Positions 20,865-41,217 of a stretch of 64,000 nucleotides of DNA are shown one piece after another. Both the position numbers and the translations under genes were made by a program. Source of the stretch: Macrolepiota albuminosa (lineage: Eukaryota > Basidiomycota > Agaricomycetes > Agaricales > Agaricaceae). The number at the start of each line of letters is the position of its first letter. Within the stretch, counting starts at the first letter, position 1. The notes below the pieces were generated by a model. The model searched no databases and was not told the origin of the DNA. It saw only the letters and a list, made by a program, of their open reading frames with translations. The stretch lies in the NCBI GenBank assembly GCA_027475525.1, contig JAMWFC010000058.1, forward strand, positions 124,001 to 188,000. The letters run 5' to 3'.

Positions 20865-21794
20865 TGATAGGACCCCATACAGGATCAGCACATCAACTGC
20901 AGGCTACGGCAACACTGCACAGGCTCAGGATACCTTAGCGTGTGCTAATTAACCAATTTTGGCGATATATGATGGCCATGCACGGCAAGAAGCAGATCCA
21001 ATCAATGATAGTGCCGACAGCAGACAGAATGACAACTGACAGATGGCATCAGTCACTGATGACAGTGCTTGGAAAGAAGACTGACGATCTATCAAAAACT
21101 GATGGACAGCCTGGTGTTTAACCTTGGCGTCTGACATCGCTTAGCGCCTCGATTTGGTGCCTGACATTGCTAAGCATTTTGGACAGACAGAAGGGTGATG
21201 GATTGATGGTTTAGCATCGCGATCTGCCACCTGGCATCGCTAAGATTCTTGAATGGACGGTAGGGATCTGAAACCGTTGGAGCTACTCCTATAAAATTTT
21301 CTAGTTTACCGCACTTTGGCAATGGTTAGTCACTGGCAACGGTGAACTCCTTGTAGTATAAAAAGTACTTACTAACTTGTACATACCCATCAAAAAGAAC
21401 AGAGTTTCCTGCTCCCTTTACTCCAGTCTCTCTTACAGTCCAAGTCTCATTTACGGTCGGCAACGTTGAAGTCATCAGCAGTTGCAGACTCTCGCTAACA
21501 CTCGACACCCTCATGCCTTGCAGATATGGCAGGCATTAATGATGCTTAGACTTTGCTAAGCTTACCGCGCTCTTGCCACTTACGTTGCCGTATTCACTTA
21601 CCGCTTTTTTCCTAAGCGCTTTGTCTTAGCGCTTGACACTTGCCGACCTTTTCCAGTTTCACTTTATTTTCATAGGCACATTCTCTGGGACCTGCCCAGG
21701 ACTCCTCACATCACTTATAGTGCGCCCAACACAAGCTTTTGGTACGGTAACACTATAGTTATATTTGTTACTGACCAAACTTTGGGTGTCATCA
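20865..21794 (+). repeat. E1 5' LTR (930 bases)
   Basis: It runs from TGATAGGACCCCATACAGG to GGGTGTCATCA and is followed by the primer site. Compared with the E2 LTR it shows many CpG-to-TpG/CpA changes. Confidence 0.9.
21357..21365 (+). promoter_or_regulatory. TATA box in E1 5' LTR
   Basis: TATAAAAAG occurs about 440 bases before the LTR end, at the same place as TATATATA in E2 and TATAAAA in E3. This is the likely retrotransposon promoter and separates U3 from R. Confidence 0.6.
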
Positions 21795-21797
21795 AAT

Positions 21798-21814
21798 TGG
21801 AGCCCACCATGAGG
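21798..21814 (+). promoter_or_regulatory. E1 primer-binding site
   Basis: TGGAGCCCACCATGAGG lies three bases past the LTR end. It is conserved in all E-family members. Confidence 0.7.
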
Positions 21815-21900
21815 AATCTCTAGGGCAGAATTCCACCAGAAACCTGTCTCCAGCGTAGGCACCGTCTGCTAGAGCAGTCAGCAGAAGGCATAGCTCCTTC

Positions 21901-22054
21901 ACACCCATCAACCCCACAACCACCTGGTGCCTTACCAGGTCTCTCTCTCGCACAGGAACTACAGAACGCCACTGTAGACACCCATCAACCCCACAACCAC
22001 CTGGTGCCTTACCAGGTCTCTCTCTCGCACAGGAACTACAGAACGCCACTGTAG
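21901..22054. repeat. Exact 77-base tandem duplication (21901-21977 / 21978-22054)
   Basis: Contiguous identical copies lie in the E1 leader between the primer site and gag. E2 and E3 have a single copy of this segment. Confidence 0.9.
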
Positions 22055-22254
22055 ACGAATTTCCTGATCTCTTCCCATGTTCTCTTGACTTTAGCGCCGA
22101 CAACCTCTTAGCATTGCCGCTTGCCGTACCACAACCAGTTACCCCCATTACTCCGTTAACACCTCTTTCTCAACTTGTCATTTCTCTTACCCCATTGCCA
22201 ATCCCTAGAACTCCTTCCCCACATCCGCTAACCGAACTCGGCATCACAGTCACC

Positions 22255-22991
22255 ATGGAACAACAGGTTCAGCGCATGCCACCATGCAATCACTTCTCAG
22301 CACTGAAATGGGATGAGTCCAAGCCACAGGAGCTCTCCCAGTATTTTAAAAAATTAGAGTATTTATTCAGGGATTGTGGAATTACCAACCACACACAGAT
22401 GAAGGAGTACGCGGCAAGATACGTGTCGTATGACACGGCAGAGACGTGGACAGGTCTTGCCGAGTTTGCCGCCTTTGTTCCTGCCGCCCCACCAGTTTCA
22501 GCCCAAGGCGCCTCGTATGAAGGCTGGAAGACGGCAGTAATTCAGTTGTATCCTTGCGCTGAGGAGGCTACCCGTTACTCAGTAAACAAGTTGCAGAAAC
22601 TAGTCCATGAGTCATTCGACAACAGCACATCATCTCTTGGTGCATTCTCCACATATTACCGCGAATTCCAAAAGATTGCTAGATGGTTAGTGCAAAACGG
22701 CAAGCTATATATTAACGAGGAACATCACCTATTCCAACAAGGCATCCCGACTTCGCTTTGGACTTGCATCGCTCGCCGCCTAGAAATAGTTCATCAGGCC
22801 CATCATCCAGATGAGCCCTATAATGTTGCCGACGTCTTTGAAGCCGGTAAGTGGGTTCTCAAGGGAACAGACACTGGCATTGGGCTGCAACGTGCTAGGA
22901 CAAGCCCACCCCCAGAGCAAACTAACGGTATTATTCCCATCCCACCTCCTGTTGCCGACTTTGTTAAGAAGGAGGATCTCAACGCTGCCGT
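22255..22991 (+). pseudogene. gag: E1 gag, N-terminal part
   Basis: The ATG at 22255 (MEQQVQRMPPCNHF) matches the first ATG of E2 and E3 Gag. The reading frame is also open upstream through a proline-rich leader but has no ATG there. The capsid region includes LEYLFRDCGITNHTQMKEYA, ETWTGLAEFAAF and PTSLWTCIARRLEIVHQAHH. The frame ends where E2 is inserted, after DFVKKEDLNAAV, and Gag resumes at 45727 with the next residues. About 246 codons remain here. Confidence 0.9.
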
Positions 22992-23927
22992 TGATAGGAC
23001 CCCATACAGGATCAGCGCATCAACGGCAGGCTACGGCAACACGGCACAGGCTCAGAATACCTTAGCGCGCGCTAATTATCCAATTTTGGCGATATTTGAC
23101 AGCCGCGGACGGCAAGAAGCAGATCCGATCAATGATAGCGCCGACGGCAGCAAGAATGACAACTGACAGATGGCATCAGTCACTGACGACAGCGCTTAGG
23201 GAGAAGCCTGATGATCTATCAAAAACTGACAGACAGCTTGGCATTTGACCTTGGCGTCTGACACCGCTTAGCGTCTCGATTTGATGCCTAACGACGCTTA
23301 GGGGTTCTGACAGGCAGAAGGATGATGGATTGATGGTTTAGCACCGCGATCTGCCGCCTGGTGGCGCCAAGGGTCTTGAAAGGACGGTAGGGATCTGAAA
23401 CCGTTGGAGCTACCCCTATGAAATTTTCCAGTTTACCGCACTTTGGCGATGGTTGGTCACTGGCGACGGTGAACTCCTTGTAGTATATATAGTACTTACC
23501 GACTTGTACATAGACAGAGAACAATAGACCAGAGTTTCCTGCTCCCACTTCTTCAGTCTCCCTTACGCTCAAGAGCTCATTTACAGTCGGCAATGTTGAA
23601 CTCGTCGGCAGTTGCAGACTCTCGCCAACACTCGACACACTGGCGCCTTGCAACTATGGCAGGCATTATCGACGCTTAGACTTCGCTAAGCTTATCGTGC
23701 TCTTGCCACTTACCTTTGCCGTGTTCACTTACCGCTTCTTCCCTAGGCGCTTTACCCTAGCGCTTTACACTTGCCGACCCCATTACTGACTTTTCCTTAT
23801 TTTCACAGGCGCGTTCTCTGGGACCTGCCCGGGACTCCTCACATCACTTATAGCGCGCCCAATGCAAGCAATTGGTTCGGTAACACTATAGTCACATTTG
23901 TTACTGACCAAACTTTGGGCGTCATCA
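22992..23927 (+). repeat. E2 5' LTR (936 bases)
   Basis: It runs from TGATAGGACCCCATACAGG to GGGCGTCATCA. It contains a TATA box and is followed by the primer site. A TTTTCACAG-like 3' splice acceptor occurs near 23805, so a spliced leader is possible but unproven. Confidence 0.93.
23484..23491 (+). promoter_or_regulatory. TATA box in E2 5' LTR
   Basis: TATATATA is followed by AGTACTTACCGACTTGTACA, a block conserved in all E-family LTRs. Transcription probably starts a few tens of bases downstream. Confidence 0.6.
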
Positions 23928-23930
23928 AAT

Positions 23931-23948
23931 TGGAGCCCACCGCGAGGG
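23931..23948 (+). promoter_or_regulatory. E2 primer-binding site
   Basis: TGGAGCCCACCGCGAGGG lies three bases after the LTR. This CpG-intact version is presumably nearest the working sequence. Confidence 0.7.
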
Positions 23949-24307
23949 ATCTCTAGGGCAGAATTCTGCCAGAAACCCGTCTCCAGCGTAGGTGCTGCCT
24001 GCTAGACCAGTCGGCAGAAGGCATAGCTCCTTCCCATCCATCAACTCCACAACCACCTGGTGCCTTACCGGGTCTCTCTCTTGCACAGGAACTACAGAAC
24101 GCCACTGTAGACGCATTTCCTGATCTCTTCCCGCATTCCCTCGATTATAGCGCCAACGACCCCTTAGCGTCGCCCTTTACCGTACCGCAACCAATCACCC
24201 CCATTACTCCGTTAACGCCTCTTTCACAACTCATTTCTCTTACCCCGTTGCCAATCTCTAGAACTCCTTCCCCACTACCGCTAACCGAACTCGCCAACAC
24301 AGTCGCC

Positions 24308-26617
24308 ATGGAACAACAAGTCCAGCGCATGCCGCCACGCAACCACTTCTCGGCACCGAAATGGGACGAGACCAAGCCACGGGAGCTCTCCCAGTATTTC
24401 AAGGAGTTGGAGTATTTATTCAGAGATTGTAACATTACCGACCACACGCAGATGAAGGAGTACGCGGCAAGATACGTATCGTATGACATGGCAGAGACGT
24501 GGACAGGTTTGACCGAGTTTGCCGCCTTTGTCCCTGCCGCCCCACCAGTTCCAGCCCAAGGCGCTTCGTATGAAGGCTGGAAGACGGCAGTAATTCAGTT
24601 GTACCCTGGCGCGGAGGAGGCTACCCGATACACGGTAAACGAGCTCCAGAAACTAGTACAGGAATCATTCAACAACGGCACGTCTTTGCTTGGCACATTC
24701 TCTACCTATTACCGCAAGTTCCAGAAAATCGCTAGGTGGCTTCTACAAAACGGCAAGCTATACATTAACGAGGAACGTCGCCTATTCCAACAAGGCATCC
24801 CGACTTCACTTTGGACTCGTATTGCTCGTCGTCTAGAAATTGTTCATCAGGCCCATCACCCAGACGAGCCCTATAACGTTGCCGACGTCTTTGAAGCCGG
24901 TAAATGGGTTCTCAAGGGGACGGACACTGGCGTTGGGCTACAACGCGCTAGGACGAGCCCACCACCTGAGCGAACTAACGGTATTATTCCCATCCCGCCT
25001 CCTGTTGCCGACTTCGTTAAGAAGGAGGACCTTAACGCTGCCGTTACCGCTGCCGTCGCTTCTGCCATGACGTGTATTGAAACTATGATTACCACCAACC
25101 TCGCTAACCGACCCGTTAATGTACCCGCGTCTGGCCCTTGCCACTTCTGTGGGGAAATTGGCCATACTATGACTAGAGGACGCTGCGCTACCCTAGAAAA
25201 CTACATTCGGCAAGGAAGGATTCGACGGGCTATCAACGGCAAGATAGTTCTCACCACTGGCGCCACCATCCCCAACTACCTGGACAAGAAGTCCTTCCAG
25301 GAGCGAGTTGATGAATGGCACAGGCACAATTCAGGACAAATCGTTACTGGCACGCTATCTGGCAATGCCAATCCCGACCCTGAACAGGCGACCCAACAGC
25401 AAATGGTTCACGAGGTCTTACACTTCGACAGCGTTGGCGACCACCCAACTTTCTCGTGGAAAGAACGTATCGCCAAGCTCCAACAGGAGCTAGATTCGCT
25501 CAAGAATCAGGTCTTTGATGGGGTTGAAGTTAAGCAGCCTAAACAACCTCTTAAAGGATACAAGCCAATGCCTCCCGCTAGCAAGCTACCGACACCTGCT
25601 CCTGCCGCACCGCCTGCTACTACCCCTGCTACTACTCCAGAACCATTGTTGTCCGCTACCGCTCCTGAACCGCCTTTGCCGCCTCTCCATCTCTACTCAG
25701 GGATTCCCGACCGTTATCATGCTCCCGCACAACGAAATTTTGCCGCTCCCGAGAAACATCCTGAGGGTGGTTACCAACCTACCACGCCAATTTTCGATAT
25801 AGAGAAATCAAACCACGTCTTTAACCGCATCATGAAAACCAATGTCACCTTGTCAGTTGAAGAACTTTGTAGTATTGCTCCCGATGTTCGCAACCAAGTC
25901 AAGACAGCAGTCACTCCCCGATGACCCTTGGCGACGACCGTTGCCGAGGTCGAGGACCTCGACGACGTGCTTCCCGGTTTTTCCGTTACCGTCGACTCTT
26001 TGGACACTGAAGACTCTCCTGCCGACACCATCGCTAACGCTACCTCTGTGGACCCAGTAGAGACCTATCTTAGGTCAGTAGACCATGGAGAGGACCCAGC
26101 AATTCTTACCGTCGCCCAAGAATCGCATGCTATTCGCTCAGTAGCGCTAACTATTGACAACAAGCACGAGGTAGAGGCAATTGTGAATAGCGGGTCTCAG
26201 ATCATTTCTATGGCAGCGGAAGTCGCTAACGATTTGGGTCTCATTTATGACCCTACAGTTATATTAAACATGCAGAGCGCTAACGGTACGGTGGACAGAT
26301 CCTTAGGCCTCGCCAAGAATGTGCCCTGCACCCTTGGCGACATTACGTTCTACCTCCAAATACACATTTTACGCTCCCCGGCATACAACCTACTACTCGG
26401 CAGACCCTTTGACGTTTTGGCACGATCAGTCGTCAAGACAGTTACCGACGACGAAACAACACTAACAATTAGCGACCCCAATTCTGGAATCCAACGAACG
26501 GTGCCAACGTTCCCTAGGGAACAACAAAAAGGCACCCTCGCTAAGCCGCCAGAGTTTACCGACCAACACGCCAACGAACAACCCTACTGGTGTTTTCACA
26601 GACCATCGAGGAGGTGA
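24308..26617 (+). pseudogene. gag: E2 gag-protease, 770 codons with one internal TGA
   Basis: ATG at 24308. The capsid part is at residues 1-230 (LEYLFRDCNITDHTQMKEYA, AVIQLYPGAEEATRY). A zinc knuckle CHFCGEIGHTMTRGRC is near residues 277-292. A coil (IAKLQQELDSLKNQVFDG) and a proline/alanine-rich linker follow. A retropepsin domain starts at IVNSGSQIISMAAEVANDLG, where E3 has DSGSQ. The catalytic aspartate codon here reads AAT, so the protease looks dead as well. It ends with the LLLGRPF flap motif and about 70 more residues. TGA at 25922-25924 replaces the CGA present in E3. The final segment overlaps pol in the -1 frame. Confidence 0.9.
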
Positions 26618-28183
26618 TTGGCGAAGATCACAGAGATGTGGCGCTAACGCTGGAATATGACCAGTCTACTGGTCTTGTAAATGTTATGTCTACTGCTTTT
26701 CTTGACCAAGATGTTTTAACTACTTTACCCGCTACCGACGCAGAGCTTTCCCAGAAAAATCAAAACATTACCGACTCCTCTCTTGCCTACTTGTACCTTA
26801 CCGCTTCCGAATCCTTTCAAAATATTGCGTCTACCAATACTTACCTCACTACTCTTCCCAGAGCCTCGTCTCTTGCCGTTCTTGGACTTGCCGCTCCCCA
26901 GGACACAGTTCCCCTTCCCACCTCTGTATATAACCAAGCTAACGCTCCCAAAAGGAAAGGGGTTCAAGTCAAAAAGAAATATAAGCCAGTTGCGCTTAAA
27001 ACAAAACCCGTCGCTACACACTCTCCCAAGACCTTTAGAATCGAGCGCTAGATCATTGGCGAACCTCTTGCCGACATGCCGACCTTATCACCGAATCCGC
27101 CACCCTTTCAGCCCACAGGACGTTTTACTGCAGAACGCCAGCAGCAGTTCGCCAAGGAGCACGATACAGGATTTTTGACCAAAGATGAGTTGAATGTCCT
27201 TACCGATCTCGTCGCTAAGCAGGATAAAGCCTTCGCCTGGGAGGACTCAGAACGCGGCAGTCTACGTACAGATTTCTTCCCGCCTGTCGTCATCCCGACC
27301 ATTCCTCACATGCCGTGGACTGAGCACAACCAACCGTTACCACCTGGAATCGAAGCCAAGGTCTGCCAAATCATTAGGACCAAGATAAAGGCTGGAGTCT
27401 ACGAGCCCTCCAATAGTTCTTACCGCTCCCGTTGGTTCTGTGTCCTCAAAAAGAATGGCAATCTACGCATAGTTCACAGTCTCAAGCCGCTGAATAGAGT
27501 TACTATACGACACTCTGGCATACCGCCTTTTCCTGACCACTTTGCCGAGTCCTTTGCCGGGCGCATTTGTGGCGCTACCCTTGACCTCTACGTTGGCTAC
27601 GACGAACACCTGATACACCCCTCTTCCCGGGATCTCACTACCTTTCAAACTCCGTTTGGCGCCTTGCGCCTAGTTACCTTGCCGATGGGCTGGACAAACT
27701 CAGTCCCTATATTCCATGACGACATCACCTTCATCCTCCAACCCGAGATACCGCATAATGTCCTCAGCTTCATTGATGATGTTGGCGTCAAAGGCCCCAA
27801 AGACTGGCGACTCGTAAACGGCTTACCGGCAACCCATCCCGAGAACCCCAACATTTGCTTAGCGCTATGGGAGTTTTTTTTGCTGCTCAATCGAGTTCTC
27901 CAACGTATGAAGTATAGCGGTGGAACCTTTAGCAGCCACAAACTCCTCTTATGCGCACCAAGGTTCAAAATACTTGGTCACATCTGCACTCCCGACGGTC
28001 GTGTTCCCGACGAGTCTCGCTTAGCACTCCTGGAGCGATGGGGTCCTTGCCGCGACTTATCTGAAGTTTGCGCCTTTCTTGGCACCATTGGTGTGCTCAG
28101 GATATTCGTCAAAAACTTTGCCCATCGCGCACACACCCTTAACCGACTCACCCACGCCAACGAGCCCTTTGAGTTTGGGCCAG
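26546..28183 (+). pseudogene. pol: E2 pol, first part: reverse transcriptase
   Basis: The pol frame opens at about 26546 inside the end of gag-protease and has no early ATG. A linker rich in threonine and proline carries TAG at 27049-27051 where E3 has CAG. RT runs from about 27250 to 28170: SRWFCVLKKNGNLRIVHSLK, FGALRLVTLPMGWTNSVPIF and the catalytic box LSFIDDVGVKG, phenylalanine replacing the usual tyrosine of YxDD. The connection region ends with RLTHANEPFEFGP, where E3 is inserted. Pol resumes at 39336. Confidence 0.9.
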
Positions 28184-29133
28184 TGATGACGCCCAAAGTT
28201 TTGGTCAGCAACAAATGTAGCAGTAGTGTTACCGGACCAAGAGCTTGCGTTGGGCGCGCTAAAAGTAATATGAGGAGTCCCGGGCAGGTCCCAGAGAACG
28301 CGCCTAAGAAAATGAGAAAAGTCGGTAACGGGGTCGGCAAGTGTCAAGCGCTAAGGTAAAGCGCCTAAGGAAATGCGGTAAGTGAAGACGGCAAGGGTGA
28401 GCGGCAAGAGCACGATAAGCTTAGCGAAGTTCTAAGCGTCGATAATGCCTGCCGTAGTTGCAAGGCGCGAGTATGTCAAGTGTTGGCGAGCGTCTGCAAC
28501 TGCCGATGAGTTTGACGTTGCCGACCGTAGCGTAAATGAGCTCTTGAGCGTAAGGGAGACTGAGGAAAGGGGAGTAAACTGTGGTCTATTGTTCTGATGT
28601 CCTATGTACAAGTCGGTAAGTACTTTTATACTACAATGAGTTCGCCGTCGCCAGTGGCTAATGACGCCAGAGTGCGGTAAACTGGAAAATTTCAAAGGGG
28701 TAGCTCCAACGGTTTCAGATCCCTACCGTCCATTCAAGAGCCTTAGCGACGTCAGGCGACAGATCGCGAAGCTAAACCATCACTCCATCACCCTTCTGTC
28801 CGTCAGAGTACCTAAGCGATGTCAGGCGCCAAATCGAGACGCTAAGCGGTGTCAGACGCCAAGGTCAAACGCCAAGCTGTCCATCAGTTTTTGATAGATC
28901 ATCAGGCTTCTCGCTAAGCGCTGTCGTCAGTGACTGATGCCATCTGTCAGTTGTCATTCTGTCTGCCGATCGGCACTATCACTGATTGGATCTGCTTGTT
29001 GCCGTGCGCGGCCGTCAGAAATGGCTTAAAATAGGTAGAACGCGTGCGCTAAGTTCGGAACGAGTGCGGCAAGGTTTCCGGAGCCGGTGCCGAGCCTGCC
29101 GTTGATGCGCCTAACCTGTATAGGGTCCTATCA
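28184..29133 (-). repeat. E3 3' LTR (950 bases)
   Basis: On the minus strand it runs from TGATAGGACCCTATACAGG to GGGCGTCATCA. The first 115 or so bases differ from E1/E2 LTRs and resemble LTR-D, while the rest matches E1/E2. Confidence 0.93.
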
Positions 29134-29142
29134 TCTCCCCCC
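29134..29142 (-). promoter_or_regulatory. E3 polypurine tract
   Basis: On the minus strand GGGGGGAGA sits directly before the LTR TGATAGG, the expected plus-strand primer. The same tract precedes the E2 3' LTR. Confidence 0.8.
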
Positions 29143-29153
29143 AACTGAAAAAT

Positions 29154-29169
29154 TGACTGTCCTCAGTCA
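29154..29169 (+). promoter_or_regulatory. Inverted repeat upstream of the antisense gene
   Basis: TGACTG, four bases, CAGTCA form a perfect 6-base inverted repeat about 135 bases before the antisense ATG and next to the polypurine tract. It is also present at the same place in E2 (44755-44770 region). It could be a dimeric factor site for the antisense promoter or a structure used in reverse transcription. Neither is shown. Confidence 0.45.
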
Positions 29170-29303
29170 CCAAATAAGGCTACCGTTACTGCTTTTTGTG
29201 ACAGGTGGTCCGTGCGTTCTTGAGATTTTGTTTATAGTCCTGGCGCGTGAATTTGGACTTCGTTTCTTCTCCCCATCTTTTCCTGGCGCTCAAATAAAAA
29301 AAT

Positions 29304-30819
29304 ATGTCTTTCCGAATTCCAACTCCGCCTCCAGTCCCGTCTCAGGCTGCTCAAGAAGCCGCCTACGCATACATCGCTAAGGCCAACCGGTTTATTCGGC
29401 ACATCGAGGGCGTTGGCGCCGAGGCGTCTCAAAATTTGGTGGTTGGCGTCATGAAGCTGCTGGAGAAGTGGTATGAGGTGAGGGTCCTTGGCGTTGGCTG
29501 GGATCGAGAGATCGAGGTGCGGGAGTGGTGCCGGGCCCGCTATGTGGATAATCGTGGCGCGGAGTGGTTAGCGCCGTTTTCTCGTTTTGTAAGTGCTTTT
29601 AGCCCTTGCCGTGTCGCTTAGCTAATTCCTCCCTAGGCGCCTCCCCCCGTCCTTACTATCGAAGATGAACTTGAGGACATCCTTTCTGGCGCGTTGCCGA
29701 TGACCGTAAGCGCATCGGCAACAGAGTAAGTAGCTTCTGACCTTCCCTTCTCTAGCTATGGACTGAACTGTCTCCTCGTAGTAAGCAAGAGGTACTGGAG
29801 CCTCTTGCTCAATTGCAGATCGAGCAAGAGCAGGAGGAGGCTGCCGCTGCCGCTGCCGCGCACTCCTTGGCGGTGGCAAGGGCAGAGCTCGCCAAGGAGC
29901 AGAAGAAGGAGTCCGTTGCCGAGGGTTCCAGCAAGGGGTCTCGCGCCGGCAGTGTTCAGAGCCCCACACTGCCGGCAGGCACACAGGGTTCGCCTTCAAA
30001 GCCTGGAAAGGCTTTGAAGAAAAAGGTAAGTCTGCTGTCGTTGGCGCTTCTTCTTACCGGTGGTAACTGTCGCTAGTCTCGCAAGGGGAAGGGTCCTCAA
30101 TACGAGGTACGCCGTCGTGACACTTTGCCGACCTTTTACTGACTCTCTCTCAGCTCCCTAGTCAGACCACTTTCGACGATAAGGAGTTGAAGGGTCTGCT
30201 CTTGCCGCGCCGGGAAGATGTCGTGATGGATGAGGGCATTGAGGGAGGAGTGGAGATCCCCGAGATGAAGAACAAGCGTACAGTTTCCTTGGCGACGCGC
30301 CAAGAGTTCAAAGATTCGCGGGGAGCGGTAAGCAACTTGTCTTTTATAACTTTTCTTCCACTAGACTGGTCTTAGTGCGACAAATGTTGGGCTGACAACG
30401 ACCCCGAAAGTTGTTGGTTTCCCACTGGCGCTCAACCGTGCTACCGATGCGGCACTCTCAAGCGTGCCTGTACCATTGATGGCGCCAAGAGTCGCGAGCG
30501 GGGCGGAGCGCCTGATGCCTTTGTCGAGAGGACCTTTTCCCGAGCTGTTCTGGTGAAGCGGGCGAGGGAGTTTGTTGAGGGGGAACGTAGGGAGGTTGCC
30601 GCTGGGAGGGCGGCGAAGATTAGCAAGTCCTCCTTGGCGCTGCCGACGCGCCAAGGAGATGAATCGGAATCGGTCGGCAAGCGCGGCGCTGGCGAGCGCC
30701 AGGAAAAACGCAAGGCCTCCTTCCCAAGCAAGGGCAAGAGTAAGGCCAAGCGAGTACGCATCGAGTCGCCATCCCCCTCTCCAAGTGCTGAGGACAGGGA
30801 GATGAAGGAGACGTTGTAA
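29304..30819 (+). CDS. E3 antisense accessory gene: six exons, six-cysteine zinc-type motif
   Basis: Exons are 29304-29588, 29637-29705, 29756-30025, 30077-30106, 30154-30327 and 30376-30819. Introns are 47-51 bases with GTAAGT, GTAAGC or GTACGC donors and AG acceptors. Every exon is a multiple of three, so all introns are phase 0, giving 423 residues plus TAA. Exon 1 encodes a conserved domain (AYIAKANRFIRHIEGVGAEA, later WDREIEVREW). Exon 3 is alanine/glutamate-rich and ends in lysines. Exon 6 opens with CDKCWADNDPESCWFPTGAQ followed by PCYRCGTLKRAC: CX2CX8CX8CX2CX6C, close to a fungal Zn2Cys6 pattern. A basic KGKSKAKR stretch suggests nuclear localisation. The ATG follows a pyrimidine-rich leader. 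The gene lies opposite to gag-pol and converges on pol. Function is unknown; DNA binding is an inference. Confidence 0.75.
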
Positions 30820-31400
30820 TGGGAGAGCCCGCTGGCGTGCAGGAGTTGGCGGGGGAGGAGGAGAAACGGGAAGGATCGCCAAGTCGCAAGGAGGTAGAGG
30901 GCGGTAATGAGGATGCCGAGGGAGAACCGGAGGAAACCTTACGAGACGTCCCTGGCGAGTCCCAGGAGTTGCCGATGGTGGAGCCTGCCGCCCCTTGGGT
31001 AAGTGGGGGCGACTTAGCGACGCAGCTCTGGACGAGCTCGAGTGGATCCTCATCGTGGACCCCCCAGCCTCAGCCAAGAGTTACTGGCGACTCTTACGAG
31101 TGGCTGGGGGAAGACTTGGTTTATCCGGTGGTGGCCTTATATCCTCCTCAAGTGATAGAGCGGATGGCGGCGCGTGCGGCAAGCATGCGAGCGGTACTGG
31201 GTCGCGAGCGTGAGCGAGCGCGGGAGCAAATTATGGCCTCTCGCCTTCGGTACGCCAATTTGACTCGTAGCATGGACGCCCTTCAAGAGTACCAGGCGGA
31301 CTGCAACGAGGCGCTAGAGTGGCAGGCCCTCAACCACGTGCAAGTTGGCGACCTCTTGCCGCTCGACGACTCGATGTCGCTTTCCGGGGATGAAGACTGA
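30819..31400 (+). pseudogene. E3 antisense gene, C-terminal part in a shifted frame
   Basis: This 193-codon frame overlaps the preceding stop (TAATG). In E1 and E2 the equivalent C-terminal domain is in the same frame as the cysteine exon, so E3 probably has a small indel near 30815. The domain starts acidic (EVEGGNEDAEGEPEETL). Its conserved part is WTPQPQPRVTGDSYEWLGED followed by LVYPVVALYPPQ, a helical EREREREQIMASRLRYANL-like segment and YQADCNEALEWQ. It ends with LLPLDDSMSLSGDED. Separate translation by reinitiation is possible but less likely. Confidence 0.65.
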
Positions 31401-31814
31401 CGGACCTTAGGGTAGATAGGCCGTCTTGTATAGTTTCTTAATTTTGTTACCGCTAATATTACTTTCTTGCCGCCTCCTTGCCGAATGATAAGTCTTATAT
31501 TCTGGGTTAGCGCACCAGCTTAGAGCAGAGAAAGTAAGAAAGCAGGCGGCAAGTATTCTAAAGTAGATTTTAGCAAAAGGAGGAGTAGGTGTGGGACTTA
31601 GACAAAATTCGAAGAGAAGGGAAACGCTCAGTAAGTCATCATAGCGAAAAACCCTTGGCGAGAGTTGCGCAATGCGCTAAGCGTTGGCGACACGCTAGCG
31701 CTGCGACTTGACTACGTAAGGAATTGTCTGTGGAATATAGTACAGTAAGTATCGGCAAGAAAGATAAGTAAGATAAGTAATAGAAAGAAAGAGCTTATCA
31801 ATATATAGTCTTTT
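31401..31814. other. Spacer between the convergent antisense gene and E3 pol
   Basis: No reading frame is supported. AT-rich sequence here should hold the polyadenylation signals of the antisense gene and may be transcribed from both sides. The corresponding spacer in E2 is 41727-42148. Confidence 0.6.
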
Positions 31815-34800
31815 CTAATCATTTTCTTCTTCTTCAACTAGGGTCGGCAAGTCATCATCGTCCAATAATTCGGTTTCTTCAAGTTCCCTAAGCTTGGCGG
31901 TGTCGATATCTAGCGCTTCAAGCGGCAAGTCAATGTGTTCTCTAGCGAGGTATGGCAATAGGCGAAAAGCGGCAACAGGTCGATGCAGTACTGAACCATC
32001 TAATTCACAGAGCACGTAAGCGCCTCCACGGTTACGGGAGATAACTACCAAAGGTCCTAGATAGCGAGGGCGCATTTTCTTGTTGTATGAGGTTTCAATT
32101 TTGGAGTTGCGCATAAGCACTAGCGCTCCTCTCGGGAAGTTGTAATCTTTGATAGTGGCGCTATGCTCGGTCTCGAATCGTAATGCTGCTTGGCGACGTG
32201 CGCTAAAGACTACCTCGTGGAGTCGCTCTAAATCTTCCTTCCTTCGTTGGAGATCAATGGCTCGTCTGGCGATCAGGTCGGTAGTCGCCAAGATACTGTT
32301 GGGTGCTGGTTGAAGGTAGGTCGCTTCTATGATGTCGGCAGGGAGTAAAGGATGGGTGCCAGTAGCCACGTAATAGGGAGAGCAACCCATGCGCTTACGA
32401 ATAGTAACTCTTTCTGACCAAAATACTGAGTATGTCGCTTCACTCCAACGAGACTCGTCGCCATCGACTGCCTTGAAGAGCGCTTGCCGAACGTCAAAGT
32501 GTGGTCTCTCTACCAGGCCATTGGCACGTTTGTTGTAGCCAGATACTCGAATGTGGTGGATGTTGTATTTCTTGGCGAGGTATGTTAGCGCTTTGATGAT
32601 GGGCGCACCGTTATCCGTGACGATTTCTCTTAGCGCTCCCCAACGGCAGATGACGTCCTCAAATAGCCACTTGGCGACCGCGTCGGTATTTTCTCTCTGA
32701 AGCATTCGAAATTCAGGCCAGTGGATTAGCGAGCAACGACCTTGAATGATGTACTTGTAACGACCAGATTTGGGCATGTGCATGGTATCGACGTAAATTT
32801 TGCTGAAGAGGGGAGCTGGCGTTGCAACGGTTGGCGGAATGAGCACTTGGCGCGTTTGTTGGATTTGGCAGAGGTGGCAAGTCCTGATGTACCAGGCGAT
32901 GTCGGCGCTAGCGTGTGGCCACCAGAATCGTTCTAGCAGAGAAGCTCGGGTAGCGTACAGACCTCTATGACCTAGCTCGTCATGCATAGCACGCAAGACT
33001 CGTAAGCGACCTTCTGGCTTGATGATCAGCTTGTGAGCGCCATCTCGATTTCGTCGCCAAAGTCTGTTGTCGGTAAAGAAGAAATGGGTAGCATATCGGA
33101 TAAAGGTCGCGTATTGTTCGTCGGTAAGGCTCGCGGGTCGCTTAAGGTCTTGTAGCCATTGTTCAACGATTAACAAGCGGCTGTCTTCTGCCTTTGCTTT
33201 GGCGGATCGGGGGACGGCATCGTAGGTCAGGTTTCTGCTGTCTTCTCTTAGCGGATGAGGTTCCTGTACGATTTTTACGGGAGGCAAGTCTTGACTGTGG
33301 ATGCTTGCCGTGTAGAACGTGAGGGGTGCGCTAAAGATCTCAGGGCGGTAAGGGACGATGGGATGTAAAAAGATGCTGGTAGGCTGTTGCCGTCGTAGTA
33401 GGGGGATTGGCTGTTGAATGAGGTGCACGAAACCATGTAGTCGGTCGATCCAGTCCTCGAAATCGCTATCAGCCTGTGGGTCCACTGCCGGGTCGCCAGG
33501 CTGTCGTGGTCGCCTAGAGAGTCCATCTGGTCCGTGGAAAGAGCTCTTGACGTGTACCAACTCAAAGTGAAACATGAGGATGGCGACTACCCACCGGTTC
33601 ATGCTAGCGGATGGCTGGATATCGGGATTCTGCAGCATGCCCTTGATGTACCTAGCGTCGACTTCAACAATAAGGTTCCGTACGCCAATCAAATACATCT
33701 TTAGCGACCGGAAGGCTTTGAAGAGTCCATAGAGCTCTAGCTTAGGCTGGCTGTAGCGAGACTCTCTGTCGTTTAGCGTGATAGACCCAAAGCGGTTGTA
33801 GCGTCGCTGTTTCCGATTGTCGCTAAGGCATTGGCACAAGAAGTAGCCAACGGCAATGTACGAGGTGTCCACCGCCAAGATAACAGGGTCGGCAGAGGTA
33901 TAATCGATGGGGACTAGGGGCTTGGCGTCTTGTAAGGCTTTTACTAAGTCGCGTTGGGCAGTGACCTGGTCTGGCCCAAATTCGAAGGGCTCGTTAGCGC
34001 GGGTGAGTCGGTTAAGAGCATGTGCGCGATGGGCAAAGTTTTTGACGAATATCCTAAGAACGCCAACGGTACCAAGAAAGGCGCGAACTTCAGATAAGTC
34101 GCGGCAAGGGCCCCAGCGCTCTAGGAGTGCTAAGCGAGACTCGTCGGGAACGCGACCGTCGGGAGTGCAGATGTGACCAAGTATTTTGAACCTTGGCGCG
34201 CAAAGGAGGAGTTTGTGACCGCTAAACGTACCACCGCTATACTTCATGCGTTGGAGGACTCGATTGAGCAGCAGGAAAAATTCCCATAGCGCTAAGCAAA
34301 TATTGGGGTTCTCGGGATGGGTCGCCGGTAAGCCGTTTACGAGTCGCCAGTCTTTGGGGCCTTTGACGCCAACGTCATCGATGAAGCTAAGAACGTTATG
34401 CGGTATCTCGGGTTGGAGGATGAAAGTGATGTCGTCGTGGAATATAGGGACTGAGTTTGTCCAGCCCATCGGTAAGGTGACTAGGCGCAAGGCGCCAAAC
34501 GGAGTTTGAAAGGTGGTGAGGTCACGGGAAGAGGGGTGTATTAAGCGTTCATCGTAGCCAACGTAGAGATCAAGGGTGGCGCCACAGATACGCCCGGCAA
34601 AGGACTCGGCAACGTGATCAGGGAAAGGCGGTACGCCAGAGTGTCGTATGGTTACTCTATTCAGCGGCTCAAGACTGTGGACTATGCGTAGATTGCCGTT
34701 CTTCTTGAGGACGCAGAACCAACGGGAGCGGTAAGAACTATTGGAGGGCTCGTAGACGCCAGCCTGTATCTTGGTCCTAATGATTTGGCAGACCTCGGCT

Positions 34801-35606
34801 TCAATTCCAGGCGGTAACGGTCGGTTGTGCTCAGTCCACGGTACGTGAGGAATGGTCGGGATGACGACTGGCGGGAAGAAATCCGTACGTAGGCTGCCGC
34901 GTTCTGAGTCCTCCCAAGCAAAGGCTTTATCCTGCTTAGCGACGAGATCGGTAAGGACATTCAACTCATCTTTGGTCAAAAATCCTGTGTCGTGCTCCTT
35001 GGCGAACTGCTGCTGGCGCTCCGTGGTAAAACGTCCTGTGGGCTGAAAAGGTGGCGGATTCGGTGATAAGGTCGGTATGTCGGCAAGAGGGTCGCCAATG
35101 ATCTGGCGCTCGATTCTGAAAGTCTCGGGAGAGTGCGTAGCGACGGGTTTTGTTTTAAGCGCAACTGGCTTATATTTCTTTTTAACTTGTACCCCTTTCC
35201 TTTTGGGAGCGTTAGCCTGGTTATAAACAGAGGTGGAAAGGGGAACTGTAGCCTGAGGAGCGGCAAGTCCAAGAACGGCAGGGGACGAGGCTCCGGGAAG
35301 AGTGGTGAGATAAGTATCGGTAGACGCTATATTTTGAAAAGATTCGGAAGCGGTAAGGTACAAGTAGGCAAGAGAGGAGTCGGCAATATTTTGATTTTTC
35401 TGGGAAATCTCTGCGTCGGTAGCGGGTAAAGTAGTTAAAACGTCTTGGTCAAGAAAAGCAGTAGACATAACAGTTACAAGACCAGTTGAATGGTCATATT
35501 CCAGCGTTAGCGCTACATCTCCGTGATCGTCGCCAATCACCTCCTCGATGGTCTGTGAAAACACCGATGGGGAGGCTCGTTGGCGTGCTGGTCGGTAAAC
35601 TCCGGG
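31815..35606 (-). CDS. pol: E3 pol: RT, RNase H, integrase, about 1250 residues
   Basis: The frame opens at about 35606 within the gag-protease end and has no usable ATG upstream, so it is presumably made by a -1 frameshift from gag-protease. From the VFSQTIEEVIG start, domains in order are: a linker (1-190); RT (about 190-520) with catalytic LSFIDDVGVKG; RNase H (about 555-690) with ILAVDTSYIAVGYFLCQCLS and SSFHGPDGLSRRP; integrase zinc domain (HDELGHRG...CHLCQIQQ, about 860-905); and the integrase core with YVDTMHMPKSG, IVTDNGAP and NGLVERPHFDV giving D, D, E. A GPY/F-like module (RPRYLGPLVVISRNRGGAYV) follows, then an acidic tail. No chromodomain is visible. No internal stops occur, so the enzyme may be active. 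Confidence 0.92.
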   Translation of the reverse strand, partial: PGVYRPARQRASPSVFSQTIEEVIGDDHGDVALTLEYDHSTGLVTVMSTAFLDQDVLTTLPATDAEISQKNQNIADSSLAYLYLTASESFQNIASTDTYLTTLPGASSPAVLGLAAPQATVPLSTSVYNQANAPKRKGVQVKKKYKPVALKTKPVATHSPETFRIERQIIGDPLADIPTLSPNPPPFQPTGRFTTERQQQFAKEHDTGFLTKDELNVLTDLVAKQDKAFAWEDSERGSLRTDFFPPVVIPTIPHVPWTEHNRPLPPGIEAEVCQIIRTKIQAGVYEPSNSSYRSRWFCVLKKNGNLRIVHSLEPLNRVTIRHSGVPPFPDHVAESFAGRICGATLDLYVGYDERLIHPSSRDLTTFQTPFGALRLVTLPMGWTNSVPIFHDDITFILQPEIPHNVLSFIDDVGVKGPKDWRLVNGLPATHPENPNICLALWEFFLLLNRVLQRMKYSGGTFSGHKLLLCAPRFKILGHICTPDGRVPDESRLALLERWGPCRDLSEVRAFLGTVGVLRIFVKNFAHRAHALNRLTRANEPFEFGPDQVTAQRDLVKALQDAKPLVPIDYTSADPVILAVDTSYIAVGYFLCQCLSDNRKQRRYNRFGSITLNDRESRYSQPKLELYGLFKAFRSLKMYLIGVRNLIVEVDARYIKGMLQNPDIQPSASMNRWVVAILMFHFELVHVKSSFHGPDGLSRRPRQPGDPAVDPQADSDFEDWIDRLHGFVHLIQQPIPLLRRQQPTSIFLHPIVPYRPEIFSAPLTFYTASIHSQDLPPVKIVQEPHPLREDSRNLTYDAVPRSAKAKAEDSRLLIVEQWLQDLKRPASLTDEQYATFIRYATHFFFTDNRLWRRNRDGAHKLIIKPEGRLRVLRAMHDELGHRGLYATRASLLERFWWPHASADIAWYIRTCHLCQIQQTRQVLIPPTVATPAPLFSKIYVDTMHMPKSGRYKYIIQGRCSLIHWPEFRMLQRENTDAVAKWLFEDVICRWGALREIVTDNGAPIIKALTYLAKKYNIHHIRVSGYNKRANGLVERPHFDVRQALFKAVDGDESRWSEATYSVFWSERVTIRKRMGCSPYYVATGTHPLLPADIIEATYLQPAPNSILATTDLIARRAIDLQRRKEDLERLHEVVFSARRQAALRFETEHSATIKDYNFPRGALVLMRNSKIETSYNKKMRPRYLGPLVVISRNRGGAYVLCELDGSVLHRPVAAFRLLPYLAREHIDLPLEALDIDTAKLRELEETELLDDDDLPTLVEEEEND

Positions 35607-37926
35607 GGCTTAGCGCGGGCGCCTTTTCGTTGTCCCCTAGGGAACGTTGGCACCGTTCGTCGGATTCCGGAATTGGGGTCGCTAATTGTGAGGGTCGTTT
35701 CCTCGTCGGTAACTGTTTTGACGACTGATCGCGCCAAGACGTCGAAAGGTCTGCCGAGTAGTAAGTCGTAAGCCGGGGAACGTAAAATGTGGATTTGAAG
35801 ATAAAACGTAATGTCGCCAAGGGTGCACGGCACATTCTTGGCGAGGCCGAGGGATCTGTCCACGGTACCGTTAGCGCTCTGCATGTTTAGTATAACCGTA
35901 GGGTCGTAAATGAGGCCTAGATCGTTAGCGACTTCTGCTGCCATAGAAATAATCTGAGACCCGCTATCATAACCGTAGGGTCGTAAATGAGGCCTAGATC
36001 GTTAGCGACTTCTGCTGCCATAGAAATAATCTGAGACCCGCTATCCATGATTGCCTCTACTTCGTGCTTGTTGTCTACGGTTAGCGCTACCGAGCGGATA
36101 GCGTGCGATTCTTGAGCGACGGTAAGGATTGCTGGGTCTTCTTCATGGTCTACCGACCTAAGGTAGGTCTCCACTGGATCCACAGAGGTGGCGTTAGCGA
36201 TGGTGTCGGCAGGAGATTCTTCAGCGTCCAGCGAGTCGACGGTAACAGAAAAACCAGGGAGCGCATCGTCGAGTTCATCAACCTCGGCAACAGCTGTCGC
36301 CAAGGGTCGTCGGGGAGTGACTGCCGTCTTGACCTGGTTGCGGACGTCGGGAGCAATACTACAAAGTTCTTCTACTGACAAGGTGACGTGGGTTTTCATG
36401 ATGCGGTTAAAAACGTGGTTCGATTTTTTGATGTCAAAAATTGGCGCAGTAGGTCGGTAGCCACCCTCAGGACGTTTCTCGGGAGCGGCAAAGTTTCGTT
36501 GTGCGGGAGCGTGATAACGGTCGGGAATCCCTGAATAAGGATGGAGAGGCGGCAAAGGCGGTTCGGGAGCGGTAGCGGACGACGATGGTTCTGGAGCAGT
36601 ATCAGGGGTAGTGGCAGGAGGTGCGGCAGGAGCAGGTGTTGGTAACTTGCTAGCGGGAGGCATTGGCTTGTATCCTTTAAGAGGTTGTTTAGGCTGCTTA
36701 ACTTCAACCCCATCAAACACCTGATTCTTAAGCGAATCCAGCTCCTGTTGGAGCTTGGCGATACGTTCTTCCCGCGAGAAAGTAGGATGGTCGCCAACGC
36801 TGTCGAAGTGTAGGACCTCGTGAATCATCTGCTGTTGGGTCGCCTGTTCGGGGTCGGGGTTGGCGTTGCCAGATAGCGTGCCGGTAACGATTTGTCCTGG
36901 ATTGCGCCTATGCCATTCATCAACTCGCTCCTGGAAGGACTTCTTGTCTGGGTAGTTGGGAATGATGGCGCCAGTAGTGAGAACTATCTTGCCGTCGATA
37001 GCCCGTCGAATTCTACCTTGCCGAATGTAATTCTCGAGGGTAGCGCAGCGTCCTCTAGTCATGGTGTGGCCAATTTCCCCACAGAAGTGGCAAGGGCCAG
37101 GTGCGGGTACGTTAGCGGGTCGGTTAGCAGTCAGGTTGGTGGTAATCATGGTTTCGATGCGTGTCATAGCGGAAGCAACAGCCGCGGTAATAGCAGCATT
37201 GAGCTCCTCCTTCTTAACGAAGTCGGCAGCGGGAGGTGGGATGGGAATAATACCGTTAGTTCGCTCAGGGGGTGGGCTCGTCCTAGCGCGCTGCAGTCCA
37301 ACGCCAGTGTCCGTTCCCTTGAGAACCCATTTACCGGCTTCAAAGACGTCGGCAACGTTATAGGGCTCGTCTGGGTGATGGGCCTGATGAACTATCTCTA
37401 GGCGACGAGCAATACGAGTCCAAAGCGAAGTCGGGATGCCTTGTTGGAATAGGCGACGCTCCTCGTTAATATAGAGCTTGCCGTTCTGCAGAAGCCACCT
37501 AGCGATTTTCTGGAACTCGCGGTAATACGTAGAGAATGCGCCAAGCGACGATGTGCCACTGTCGAAGGATTCCTGAACTAGTTTCTGGAGCTCGTTTACC
37601 GTGTATCGGGTAGCCTCCTCGGCGCCAGGGTACAGCTGGATTACTGCCGTCTTCCAGTCCTCATACGAAGCGCCTTGGGCTGGAGCTGGCGGGGCGGCAG
37701 GAACAAAGGCGGCAAACTCGGTAAGACCTGTCCACGTCTCTGCCGTGTCATATGATACGTATCTTGCCGCGTACTCCTTCATCTGCGTGTGGTCGGTAAT
37801 GTTACAATCCCTGAATAAATACTCCAACTCCTTAAAATACTGGGAGAGCTCCCGTGGCTTGGTCTCGTCCCATTTCGGTGCCGAGAAGTGGTTGCGTGGC
37901 GGCATGCGTTGGACTTGTTGTTCCAT
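35537..37926 (-). CDS. gag: E3 gag-protease, intact apart from a 77-base duplication
   Basis: The first ATG is at 37926 (MEQQVQRMPPRNHF). Including the 77-base duplication the span is 2390 bases. Removing it leaves 2313 bases, exactly 771 codons, with the frame restored. Capsid is at residues 1-235, zinc knuckle CHFCGEIGHTMTRGRC near 279-294, then coil, proline/alanine linker, a conserved block IFDIKKSNHVFNRIMKTHVT, and retropepsin with IMDSGSQIISMAAEVAND and LLLGRPFDVLARSV. The frame is also open upstream of the ATG as far as the primer site, without another ATG. Products would form the capsid particle and process the polyprotein. Confidence 0.92.
35892..36045. repeat. Exact 77-base tandem duplication (35892-35968 / 35969-36045)
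   Basis: It sits in the E3 protease and is the only thing breaking the E3 gag-protease frame. E1 and E2 have one copy here. Confidence 0.92.
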
Positions 37927-38289
37927 GGCGACGGTGGTAACGAGTTCGGTTAGCGGTAGTGGGGAAGGAGTTCTAGGTATTGGCGACGGGGTAAGAGAAA
38001 TGGCGAATTGAGAAAGTGGTGTTAGAGGAGTGATGGGAGTAACTGATTGCGGCAAAGTAAAGGGCGACGCTAAGGGGTCGTCGGCACTATAATCGAGGGA
38101 ATGCGGGAAGAGATCAGGAAAAGCGTCTACAGTGGCGTTCTGTAGTTCCTGGGCTAGAGAGAGACCCGGTAAGGCACCAGGTGGTTGTGGAGTTGATGGG
38201 TGGGAAGGAGCTATGCCTTCTGCCGACTGGTTTAGCAGGCGGCGCCTACGCTGGAGACGGGTTTCTGGCGGAATTCTGCCCTAGAGATC

Positions 38290-38306
38290 CCTTGCGGTGG
38301 GCTCCA
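38290..38306 (-). promoter_or_regulatory. E3 primer-binding site
   Basis: On the minus strand TGGAGCCCACCGCAAGG lies three bases after the 5' LTR end, as in E1 and E2. Confidence 0.7.
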
Positions 38307-38748
38307 ATTTGATGACGCCCAAAGTTTTGGTCAGCAACAAATGTAACTTTAGTGTTACCGGACCAAGAGCTTGCGTTGGGCGCGCTAAAAGTAATATGAG
38401 GAGTCCCGGGCAGGTCCCAGAGAACGCGCCTAAGAAAATGAGAAAAGTCGGTAACGGGGTCGGCAAGTGTCAAGCGCTAAGGTAAAGCGCCTAAGGAAAT
38501 GCGGTAAGTGAAGACGGCAAGGGTGAGCGGCAAGAGCACGATAAGCTTAGCGAAGTTCTAAGCGTTGATAATGCCTGCCGTAGTTGCAAGGCGCGAGTAT
38601 GTCGAGTGTTGGCGAGCGTCTGCAACTGCCGATGAGTTTGACGTTGCCGACCGTAGCGTAAATGAGCTCTTGAGCGTAAGGGAGACTGAAGTAAAGGGGG
38701 AAACTCGGGTCTATTCGTCTGATGTCCTATGTACAAGTCGGTAAGTAC

Positions 38749-38755
38749 TTTTATA
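38749..38755 (-). promoter_or_regulatory. TATA box in E3 5' LTR
   Basis: TATAAAA on the minus strand occurs just upstream of the conserved GTACTTACCGACTTGTACAT block. Confidence 0.6.
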
Positions 38756-38798
38756 CTACAATGAGTTCGCCGTCGCCAGTGGCTAATGACGCCAGAGT

Positions 38799-38952
38799 GC
38801 GGTAAACTGGAAAATTTCAAAGAGGTAGCTCCAACGGTTTCAGATCCCTACCGTCCATTCAAGAGCCTTAGCGACGCGGTAAACTGGAAAATTTCAAAGA
38901 GGTAGCTCCAACGGTTTCAGATCCCTACCGTCCATTCAAGAGCCTTAGCGAC
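38799..38952. repeat. Exact 77-base tandem duplication in E3 5' LTR (38799-38875 / 38876-38952)
   Basis: The 3' LTR of the same element has one copy. This argues for an assembly origin or a change after insertion. Confidence 0.9.
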
Positions 38953-39335
38953 GTCAGGCGACAGATCGCGAAGCTAAACCATCACTCCATCACCCTTCTG
39001 TCTGTCAGAACACCTAAGCGACGTTGGGCGCCAAATCGAGACGGTAAGCGGTGTCAGACGCCAAGGTCAAACGCCAAGCTGTCCATCAGTTTTTGATAGA
39101 TCATCAGGCTTCTCGCTAAGCGCTGTCGTCAGTGACTGATGCCATCTGTCAGTTGTCATTCTGTCTGCCGATCGGCACTATCACTGATTGGATCTGCTTG
39201 TTGCCGTGCGCGGCCGTCAGAAATGGCTTAAAATAGGTAGAACGCGTGCGCTAAGTTCGGAACGAGTGCGGCAAGGTTTCCGGAGCCGGTGCCGAGCCTG
39301 CCGTTGATGCGCCTAACCTGTATAGGGTCCTATCA

Positions 39336-41033: not shown

Positions 41034-41217
41034 TTCAGTATTTTGGTCAGAAAGAGTTACCATTCGTAAGCGCATGGGTTGTTCTCCCTATTACGCGGCT
41101 ACTGGCACCCATCCGTTACTCCCTGCCGACATTATAGAAGCGACCTACCTTCAGCCAGCCCCCAACAGTATCTTAGCGACTACCAATCTGATCGCCAGAC
41201 AAGCTATTGATCTCCAG

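Follow-up and report, generated by a model that had tools for sequence, protein, structure and literature searches.

The window analysed here is a stretch of 64,000 nucleotides from Macrolepiota albuminosa (contig JAMWFC010000058.1, positions 124,001 to 188,000; C85:124001-188000 of the 100.1-Mb assembly). It holds three gypsy-type long terminal repeat (LTR) retrotransposons, E1, E2 and E3, inserted one within another, each with a gene that is antisense to gag-pol and is located in the interval from pol to the 3' LTR. Judged from its sequence, this antisense gene is real, selectively maintained and spliced by its signals, and it qualifies as a true accessory gene of the gypsy lineage concerned. 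The elements are also filled with a short DNA word, CGSYAA (S = C or G, Y = C or T), and we tentatively read the antisense product as a self-encoded, sequence-specific regulator that would bind this word, in the manner of the VANC proteins of Arabidopsis VANDAL transposons, and would probably act against silencing. That the gene exists and is maintained is much more secure than this combined reading of protein and motif, to which we give somewhat less than an even chance.

Structure of the antisense gene

The gene occupies 29304-31400 (+) in E3, 44540-42149 (-) in E2 and 53800-51431 (-) in E1, coordinates that bear out an earlier note on this DNA, made from the sequence alone, which had placed the same antisense gene between pol and the 3' LTR of all three elements. 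In each, six exons are separated by five introns of 46-60 bases, and the product would measure about 660-710 amino acids (aa). As that note had also stated, exon 1 is exactly 285 bases long and is followed by GTAAGT in all three. It was right that E3 has five introns; their lengths, given there as 47-51 bases, are 48, 56, 51, 47 and 48. Its statement that all exons are multiples of three does not hold, exons 2 and 3 being of 89 and 244 bases and intron 2 of phase 2. In E3, 170 bp separate the gene ATG from the inner LTR edge and 414 bp separate the gene stop from the pol stop. Intron 3 of E1 has a GC donor. The parts of the gene are as follows.

29134..29303, plus strand: 170-bp stretch between the E3 3' LTR and the antisense-gene ATG, the presumed promoter of the gene; a sense-strand purine-rich tract at its LTR side is the presumed primer
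29304..29588, plus strand: E3 exon 1, 285 bp, N-terminal domain (95 aa)
29589..29636, plus strand: E3 intron 1, 48 bp, GTAAGT..CTAG
29637..29725, plus strand: E3 exon 2, 89 bp
29726..29781, plus strand: E3 intron 2, 56 bp, phase 2
29782..30025, plus strand: E3 exon 3, 244 bp
30026..30076, plus strand: E3 intron 3, 51 bp
30077..30106, plus strand: E3 exon 4, 30 bp
30107..30153, plus strand: E3 intron 4, 47 bp
30154..30327, plus strand: E3 exon 5, 174 bp
30328..30375, plus strand: E3 intron 5, 48 bp
30376..31400, plus strand: E3 exon 6, 1025 bp (1164 bp in the full copy L041), beginning exactly at the six-cysteine motif
44540-44256, 44206-44118, 44058-43758, 43704-43678, 43631-43458, 43408-42149, minus strand: E2 gene exons, with two in-frame stops
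53800-53516, 53466-53378, 53317-53041, 52988-52962, 52911-52738, 52687-51431, minus strand: E1 gene exons, with one in-frame stop

The E3 copy is itself broken. Compared with L041, to which it is 99.7-99.8% identical, it shows a 139-bp deletion in exon 6, bounded by short direct repeats, which leads to a frameshift and a stop at codon 422; the open reading frame (ORF) that ends at 31400 and encodes the C-terminal domain is thus out of frame with the rest in E3. This deletion, the element-wide CGSYAA and the mosaic of domain types described below go beyond the earlier note.

Coding status and selection

The E3 gene was aligned with 37 further copies from the same genome (38 rows, from 39 fetched loci, L022 and L040 being dropped for matches that were rearranged or cut short). 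After intron removal, 13 rows are open from ATG to stop, at 650-662 codons including the stop, and the other 25 contain stops, frameshifts or unaligned ends. All five introns are kept in 38 of the 38 rows, with a mutated splice base in a few decayed ones (L029, L033 and L028) and a 77-bp duplication within intron 5 in L038 and L039. Intron lengths vary among copies (46-50 bases for intron 1) while the exon frames hold. Such universal retention is expected if only unspliced sense RNA is reverse-transcribed, and it agrees with the view of the earlier note that the introns survive retrotransposition by virtue of lying antisense.

Among the intact copies, variable columns number 356, 111 and 79 at codon positions 3, 1 and 2, respectively. 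The ratio of nonsynonymous to synonymous divergence (dN/dS), which the earlier note had proposed as a check, is 0.109 for the 12 distinct intact coding sequences (mean dN 0.038, mean dS 0.354; 64 pairs, after exclusion of two of the 66 whose dS did not exceed 0.02), and hence not near one. When the same alignment was read in shifted or antisense frames, the ratios were 1.9, 2.2, 1.5, 0.21 and 2.7 (60, 60, 60, 64 and 60 pairs), the value of 0.21 belonging to antisense frame 1. Considered by part, dN/dS is highest in the long linker of exon 6 (0.22); the other parts (exon 1, exons 2-4 and exon 5, and the cysteine and C-terminal regions) give 0.05-0.09.

Linkage of the gene to its pol lineage

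In a survey of 5019 first-look pol candidates, of which 37 were scored, all with 96-100% protein identity, the gene was located antisense past the pol stop in 33 of these 37 best copies and on the same strand in none. The 33 comprise 24 opposite-strand gene matches 0.4-1.3 kb past the stop, six cases from further searches and three from fetched DNA; the remaining four pol copies were not placed (C114:6201340, C78:1891741, C104:23335 and C6:1603310). Furthermore, nine additional elements that were fetched all contain the gene, with an exon 6 that is open over 360-437 aa, including four for which no earlier search had given a match. The presence of the gene across other elements of the lineage, which the earlier note had wished to see examined, is thereby supported by the copies surveyed.

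A dense six-base word throughout the element

The four most frequent 6-mers of E3 are CGCCAA (55), CGGCAA (51), CGCTAA (44) and CGGTAA (37), where 5-7 of each are expected. Together they constitute CGSYAA, with 187 sites in 11,152 bp (82 sense, 105 antisense) as against 25.8 in dinucleotide shuffles (maximum 37), a 7-fold excess. The other twelve CGNNAA words do not exceed 1.7-fold, and other NNSYAA words reach about 2-fold. The density is 15-26 sites per kb across the LTRs, the gag-pol and pol-gene spacers, gag, pol and the gene, being highest in LTRs and spacers (23-26/kb; 23.2/kb in the E3 3' LTR). Only one tested part of E3 is free of the word, namely the 170-bp stretch between gene and LTR, where 0.2 sites are expected in shuffles; it looks as if the gene might just conceivably keep its own promoter clear. 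Fifteen further copies, representing several gene subtypes, carry 11.7-16.2 sites per kb. The background, taken from two actin loci and three arbitrarily chosen stretches of genome, among them the CpG-poor L062 with its short family traces, is 0-2/kb.

As a control for coding sequence, synonymous codons were permuted while the protein and its codon usage were kept. The pol ORF contains 56 sites against 10.5 under this permutation (z 15.6), gag 32 against 7.6, and the antisense gene, in L041, 28 against 6.3; eight exon 6 sequences of other copies gave z values of 5.1 to 8.1. Three ORFs from other parts of the window possess 2, 0 and 0 sites, with z below 0.

The word is also retained and appears old. 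In comparisons over ten loci, the partner has the same letters at 62% of motif 6-mers and at 40% of other CG-bearing 6-mers (4360 and 39096 comparisons, which are not independent). Between the E3 pol and the right part of E2, 28 of 31 motifs are kept compared with 58% of 260 other such words (Fisher p 0.0003), and between the gag genes of E3 and E2, 24 of 30 compared with 56% of 280 (p 0.011). Where exon 6 has diverged deeply (L041 and L050, dS 1.8), the 15 and 19 sites have only 5 in common and the density is nonetheless kept. Decayed relatives in the window contain few copies of CGSYAA itself. In the one at 55.8-59.0 kb (pol 65-70% identical), the deaminated forms TGSYAA and CASYAA occur 29 and 33 times, against 10.8 and 10.9 expected, and in the gag-only relic at 17.5-19.8 kb TGSYAA occurs 32 times against 8.5 (3.8-fold) and CASYAA 6 times against 7.4; in unrelated gypsy sequence at 1-12 kb the counts are 28 and 25, for 26.5 and 27.6 expected. 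These fossils suggest that the motif is old in the lineage and apparently older than the present pol family.

The protein and its relatives

The modular organisation of the product is best explained as a helical N-terminal domain, disordered linkers, a six-cysteine domain that is probably zinc-binding, and a C-terminal domain with a long helix. The motif C-x2-C-x8-C-x8-C-x2-C-x6-C is present in 44 of 45 exon 6 starts, located by their first five codons, and the one exception has an early stop. Together with the dN/dS of 0.11 over 64 pairs, this agrees with the earlier claim that an N-terminal domain, a six-cysteine motif and a C-terminal domain have been conserved and maintained.

That note's suggestion to look for the translated exons beside this gypsy lineage in other basidiomycetes was answered in part, through 16 proteins of Termitomyces, of which P0001 is 37% identical over 98% of the query and P0002 34% over 97%. 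A profile search revealed no genus beyond Termitomyces among the roughly 8000 candidates scored in each search. The cysteine spacing is the same in 14 of the 16 proteins, and the densest run of invariant columns between the genera is the cysteine domain. The codon for the first cysteine of the motif is the exact start of five Termitomyces gene models (P0009, P0012, P0013, P0014 and P0016), and P0015 reaches it by a jump from further upstream; these starts coincide with the start of exon 6 here, which suggests that at least this intron place is shared.

In a model of P0001, the helical N-terminal domain (the exon 1 part) is predicted with a local distance difference score (pLDDT) mostly of 80-91 and the C-terminal helix, of 63 residues, with 86-95, confidence between the domains being low. 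The full protein matched no Pfam family at an expect value (E) up to 10. TRP28 (PF04195) was absent from the Pfam matches of the full protein, of six relatives and of three window pieces, and Zn2Cys6 (PF00172) gave no profile match at E up to 10, the cysteine spacing differing from the pattern of that family.

A candidate self-recognition system

The density of CGSYAA, its occurrence on both strands, its retention through synonymous choice and its age together point to a DNA-binding reader of some consequence for the element. As the antisense product is the element's unexplained protein, with the cysteine domain as its most invariant part, we take it as the putative reader. At CpG, C/G transitions amount to 0.15 compared with 0.07 elsewhere in 21 old gene copies; this doubling is consistent with methylation of the elements, which would make relief of silencing the most natural benefit, as with VANC (PMC5735166). 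In the model that we infer, the gene would give rise to a spliced and translated transcript antisense to gag-pol, and the protein, holding zinc through its cysteines, would enter the nucleus and recognise CGSYAA spread over nearly the whole element. It could thus find and cover copies of its own family, marking the element as self, and covered copies would stay expressed in a host that erodes old copies at CpG. The boldest form of this reading, in which a new zinc-cluster protein coats every family copy and defeats silencing, CGSYAA is written into the element via synonymous choice, and the protein domains are shuffled as old balanced types, strikes us as doubtful.

Several results weigh against the regulator reading. 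The motif was found post hoc, and some one-base neighbours are raised as well (CGSCAG about 4-fold; CGCTTA, CGCTAT, CGGTAG and CGCCTA about 2.3-2.6-fold). No fixed spacing or pairing of the sites stood out. Conservation of the motif shows no excess in the 3' LTR compared with the right part of E2 (0.48 against 0.50) or in the pol-gene spacer (0.56 against 0.56 with E2, 0.14 against 0.31 with E1). At the fourfold sites of the pol end, few in number, 4 of 7 within motifs vary by site as against 27 of 37 outside (p 0.40), with pairwise counts on the same data leaning in the expected direction. Decay of motif CpGs is only slightly lower than that of others (0.25 against 0.31, p 0.006, with L009 as the reference; 0.25 against 0.29, p 0.056, with L046), and these CpGs might at most enjoy a faint local protection. 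Control words in the relics are raised by up to 1.9-fold. As for the protein, searches of PDB sequences and of folds returned no convincing relative, and none that binds DNA, and the model of the cysteine region is poor (pLDDT about 50-70). Finally, protein and motif are joined only by sharing the element.

This last point leads to the strongest competing explanation, an unlikely one in our estimate and yet to be taken seriously: CGSYAA may be read by Gag, integrase or a host factor, and the antisense protein may have its own task, for example in packaging, in nuclear RNA transport or in weakening host defence. The searches gave no DNA-binding relative of the cysteine domain, and the motif is about equally dense across copies with quite different linker and C-terminal types. 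The near symmetry of the strands (82 to 105) argues, however, for recognition as DNA and not as genomic RNA, and the invariant run of the cysteine domain between genera fits the reader of an unchanging site.

The same evidence of self-recognition would serve a self-limiting regulator, which binds the DNA or LTR of its own family and represses or times its transcription as a form of copy-number control. A gene placed antisense next to the 3' LTR could be coupled to copy number in this way, and the motif is densest in LTRs and spacers; the lineage nevertheless seems very abundant, as the pol candidates of the survey indicate, which strong self-limitation would not lead one to expect, and we regard self-limitation as distinctly improbable. 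Still less probable is an integration tether, whereby protein on resident CGSYAA copies steers new insertions towards them as a safe haven. This would explain the three-fold nesting in the window, and 7 of 32 readable flanks past the 3' LTR match the same family (one at only 74%), but the other 25 do not, and the 7 may be due to chance.

Very improbable is the view that codon usage, or some bias of mutation or reverse transcription, has produced the motif incidentally, beside an ordinary antisense accessory gene. The post hoc discovery of the motif, the 2-4-fold rise of neighbouring words and the fact that a single frame in pol holds 21 of the 33 antisense-strand sites would suit this explanation; the enrichment extends, on the other hand, to non-coding LTRs and spacers, several frames and both strands, and stands far above permutations that keep protein and codon usage, while three window ORFs of other elements lack it. 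That antisense RNA rather than protein matters is scarcely credible given a dN/dS of 0.11, conserved splice sites and protein relatives in another genus, even though antisense transcripts are discussed as regulators of some retroelements in the available part of PMC7264820.

A mosaic of domain types on one recent pol

The antisense genes of E3 and E2 stand at a dS of 1.48, with L041 taken for E3, as against 0.32 for gag and 0.26 and 0.27 for two stretches of pol. For E3 and E1 the corresponding values are 1.51 in the gene, 0.45 in part of gag and 0.38 in pol. Across the 91 pairs formed by 14 selected copies, median dS is 0.27 (maximum 0.47) in the final 159 codons of pol. Along the gene, the median is 0.82 in exon 1 (78 pairs, L052 having no exon 1 in its fetched stretch), 2.1 in the cysteine part (33 of the 91 pairs saturated), 1.6 in the linker (11 saturated) and 1.25 in the C-terminal part (7 saturated). 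The grouping of copies shifts accordingly: L054 groups with L049 in the cysteine part and with L042 in the C-terminal part, and L049 and L050 combine a common C-terminal type with a different cysteine type. Deeply divergent domain types are thus shuffled among elements that otherwise have one recent pol in common. As dS is not raised by selection on the protein, exchange between lineages is needed, or else repeated homogenisation of pol beneath gene types that were long kept. On a plain reading, the divergent types would have introgressed from unseen lineages; a bold one would make them old balanced types. A recombinant subtype was also observed in L042, L043 and L044, three insertions that are 98.5% identical to E3 up to gene base 1506 and 85% beyond it.

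Relation to known systems

The position and strand of the gene are not new, given the plant gypsy elements and Boty as described in the available parts of the sources. For plant gypsy elements, antisense extra genes have been on record since the 1990s with no function assigned to them (PMC7264820, PMC11963269), and the earlier note had mentioned such genes for some of these elements. These aORF-3R genes (maize Grande, rice RIRE2 and Silene Retand, the last with TRP28) likewise lie antisense between pol and the 3' LTR in most copies, and their products, including that of Retand, are also suspected of DNA-binding or regulatory roles (PMC11963269). The present gene differs in possessing neither TRP28 nor another Pfam domain. 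The words 'intron' and 'zinc' are absent from the main texts of PMC7264820 and PMC11963269, and the review urges that antisense and spliced transcripts be looked at. In the parts of these sources available, no element-wide DNA word was met for aORF-3R elements, although Retand has tandem repeats past pol.

The earlier note knew of no description of a spliced zinc-type gene of this sort in fungi. Its suggestion that fungi offer nothing comparable is not supported, as brtn, a counterpart at least in position and strand, has been reported as an antisense gene of the gypsy element Boty in Botrytis cinerea and Sclerotinia (Zhao et al. 2011, as cited in PMC7264820 and PMC8365987). Boty gag-pol is described with a chromodomain (PMC4227169, in part), whereas none was matched in the E3 pol.

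The closest functional likeness is to VANC/VANDAL of Arabidopsis, where an element-encoded protein, an element-specific repeated short motif and a host that silences by methylation again occur together (PMC5735166 and PMC10398659, as far as available). VANDALs are plant transposons of another class, and VANC21 binds YAGTATTAY in non-coding parts, often in tandem repeats; such binding is demonstrated for VANC21 (available part of PMC5735166) and conjectural for the present protein. CGSYAA is, in the same manner, element-specific and highly repeated, at 7-fold over shuffles with other tested sequence not enriched; it differs in running throughout coding sequence as well, without clustering in non-coding tandem repeats. 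Among fungi, Agaricomycetes included, DNA transposons carry TET/JBP genes as likely escape factors against methylation, and no retrotransposon was found with one, according to the part of PMC12730594 available. Those genes encode DNA-transposon enzymes, and no such domain was matched in the antisense protein.

Zn2Cys6 proteins follow the pattern C-x2-C-x6-C-x(5-12)-C-x2-C-x(6-8)-C, and sites of the Gal4 type start with CGG or CGC. The present domain resembles these in its six cysteines, its two C-x2-C groups, its second half C-x2-C-x6-C and a site starting with CGG or CGC; it differs in a first loop of x8 instead of x6. No basidiomycete antisense gene of this kind, cysteine motif, mosaic structure or element-wide word was found described in the literature searched, to the extent that its texts were available.

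Elements and other features of the window

The three elements belong to the same gypsy lineage, each with its own LTR pair: E3 lies inside the pol gene of E2, which resumes on the far side of E3, with a 4-bp duplication of CCAG, and E2 lies inside E1 with a 4-bp duplication of CCGT. Their features are listed below.

28184..39335, minus strand: E3, gypsy LTR retrotransposon of 11,152 bp, delimited by LTR comparison and flanks
28184..29133, minus strand: E3 3' LTR, 950 bp
31815..35564, minus strand: E3 pol ORF, 1249 aa, with RNase H-like and integrase zinc domains (no chromodomain match at E 0.01)
35917..38055, minus strand: E3 gag ORF, 712 aa, with DUF4100 and a weak aspartyl-protease match
38310..39335, minus strand: E3 5' LTR, 97.5-98.3% identical to the 3' LTR, with an extra tandem copy of about 77 bp
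22992..45722, plus strand: E2, interrupted by E3; LTRs 22992-23927 and 44787-45722, 97.9% identical
20865..54827, plus strand: E1, outermost, interrupted by E2 and E3; LTR match 21026-21794 and 54059-54827, 93.2% identical; outer start 20865 approximate, taken from the LTR end sequence there

Older relatives with very low CpG occur at 55800-59000 and 12001-20800 of the window, at 65-70% protein identity in pol and 55-64% in gag, and a tblastn search of the window with four gene proteins found no further antisense gene. Positions 1-12000, on the minus strand, contain unrelated gypsy-type sequence (zinc-knuckle gag/protease, reverse transcriptase and RNase H pieces) in which CGSYAA is not enriched. 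Tandem duplications of about 77 bp were observed in varied places in L024, L031, L032, L038, L039 and L045 (and in L028, by length) and, within the window, at 38876 in the E3 5' LTR and at about 44720-44800; their near-constant length suggests an artefact of assembly joins (k-mer overlap) rather than biology. A gypsy-like pol of 34% identity was also met in L059 (8383 bp), a contig filed under a cyanobacterial metagenome-assembled genome and probably eukaryotic contamination.

Significance

The gene clearly exemplifies how an antisense gene can be exchanged between elements like a cassette, and it provides a six-cysteine domain for which the domain and fold searches gave no relative. Its protein comes with a candidate target site. 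Should the link between protein and motif be true, it would represent a route by which a fungal retrotransposon escapes silencing, and an origin of sequence-specific anti-silencing outside plants and VANDAL-type transposons, with coding sequence bent through synonymous choice to serve as a binding site. To our knowledge, such a system would have no precedent among retrotransposons, nor would there be an earlier instance in which the site of an element's own accessory protein shapes codon choice along that element.

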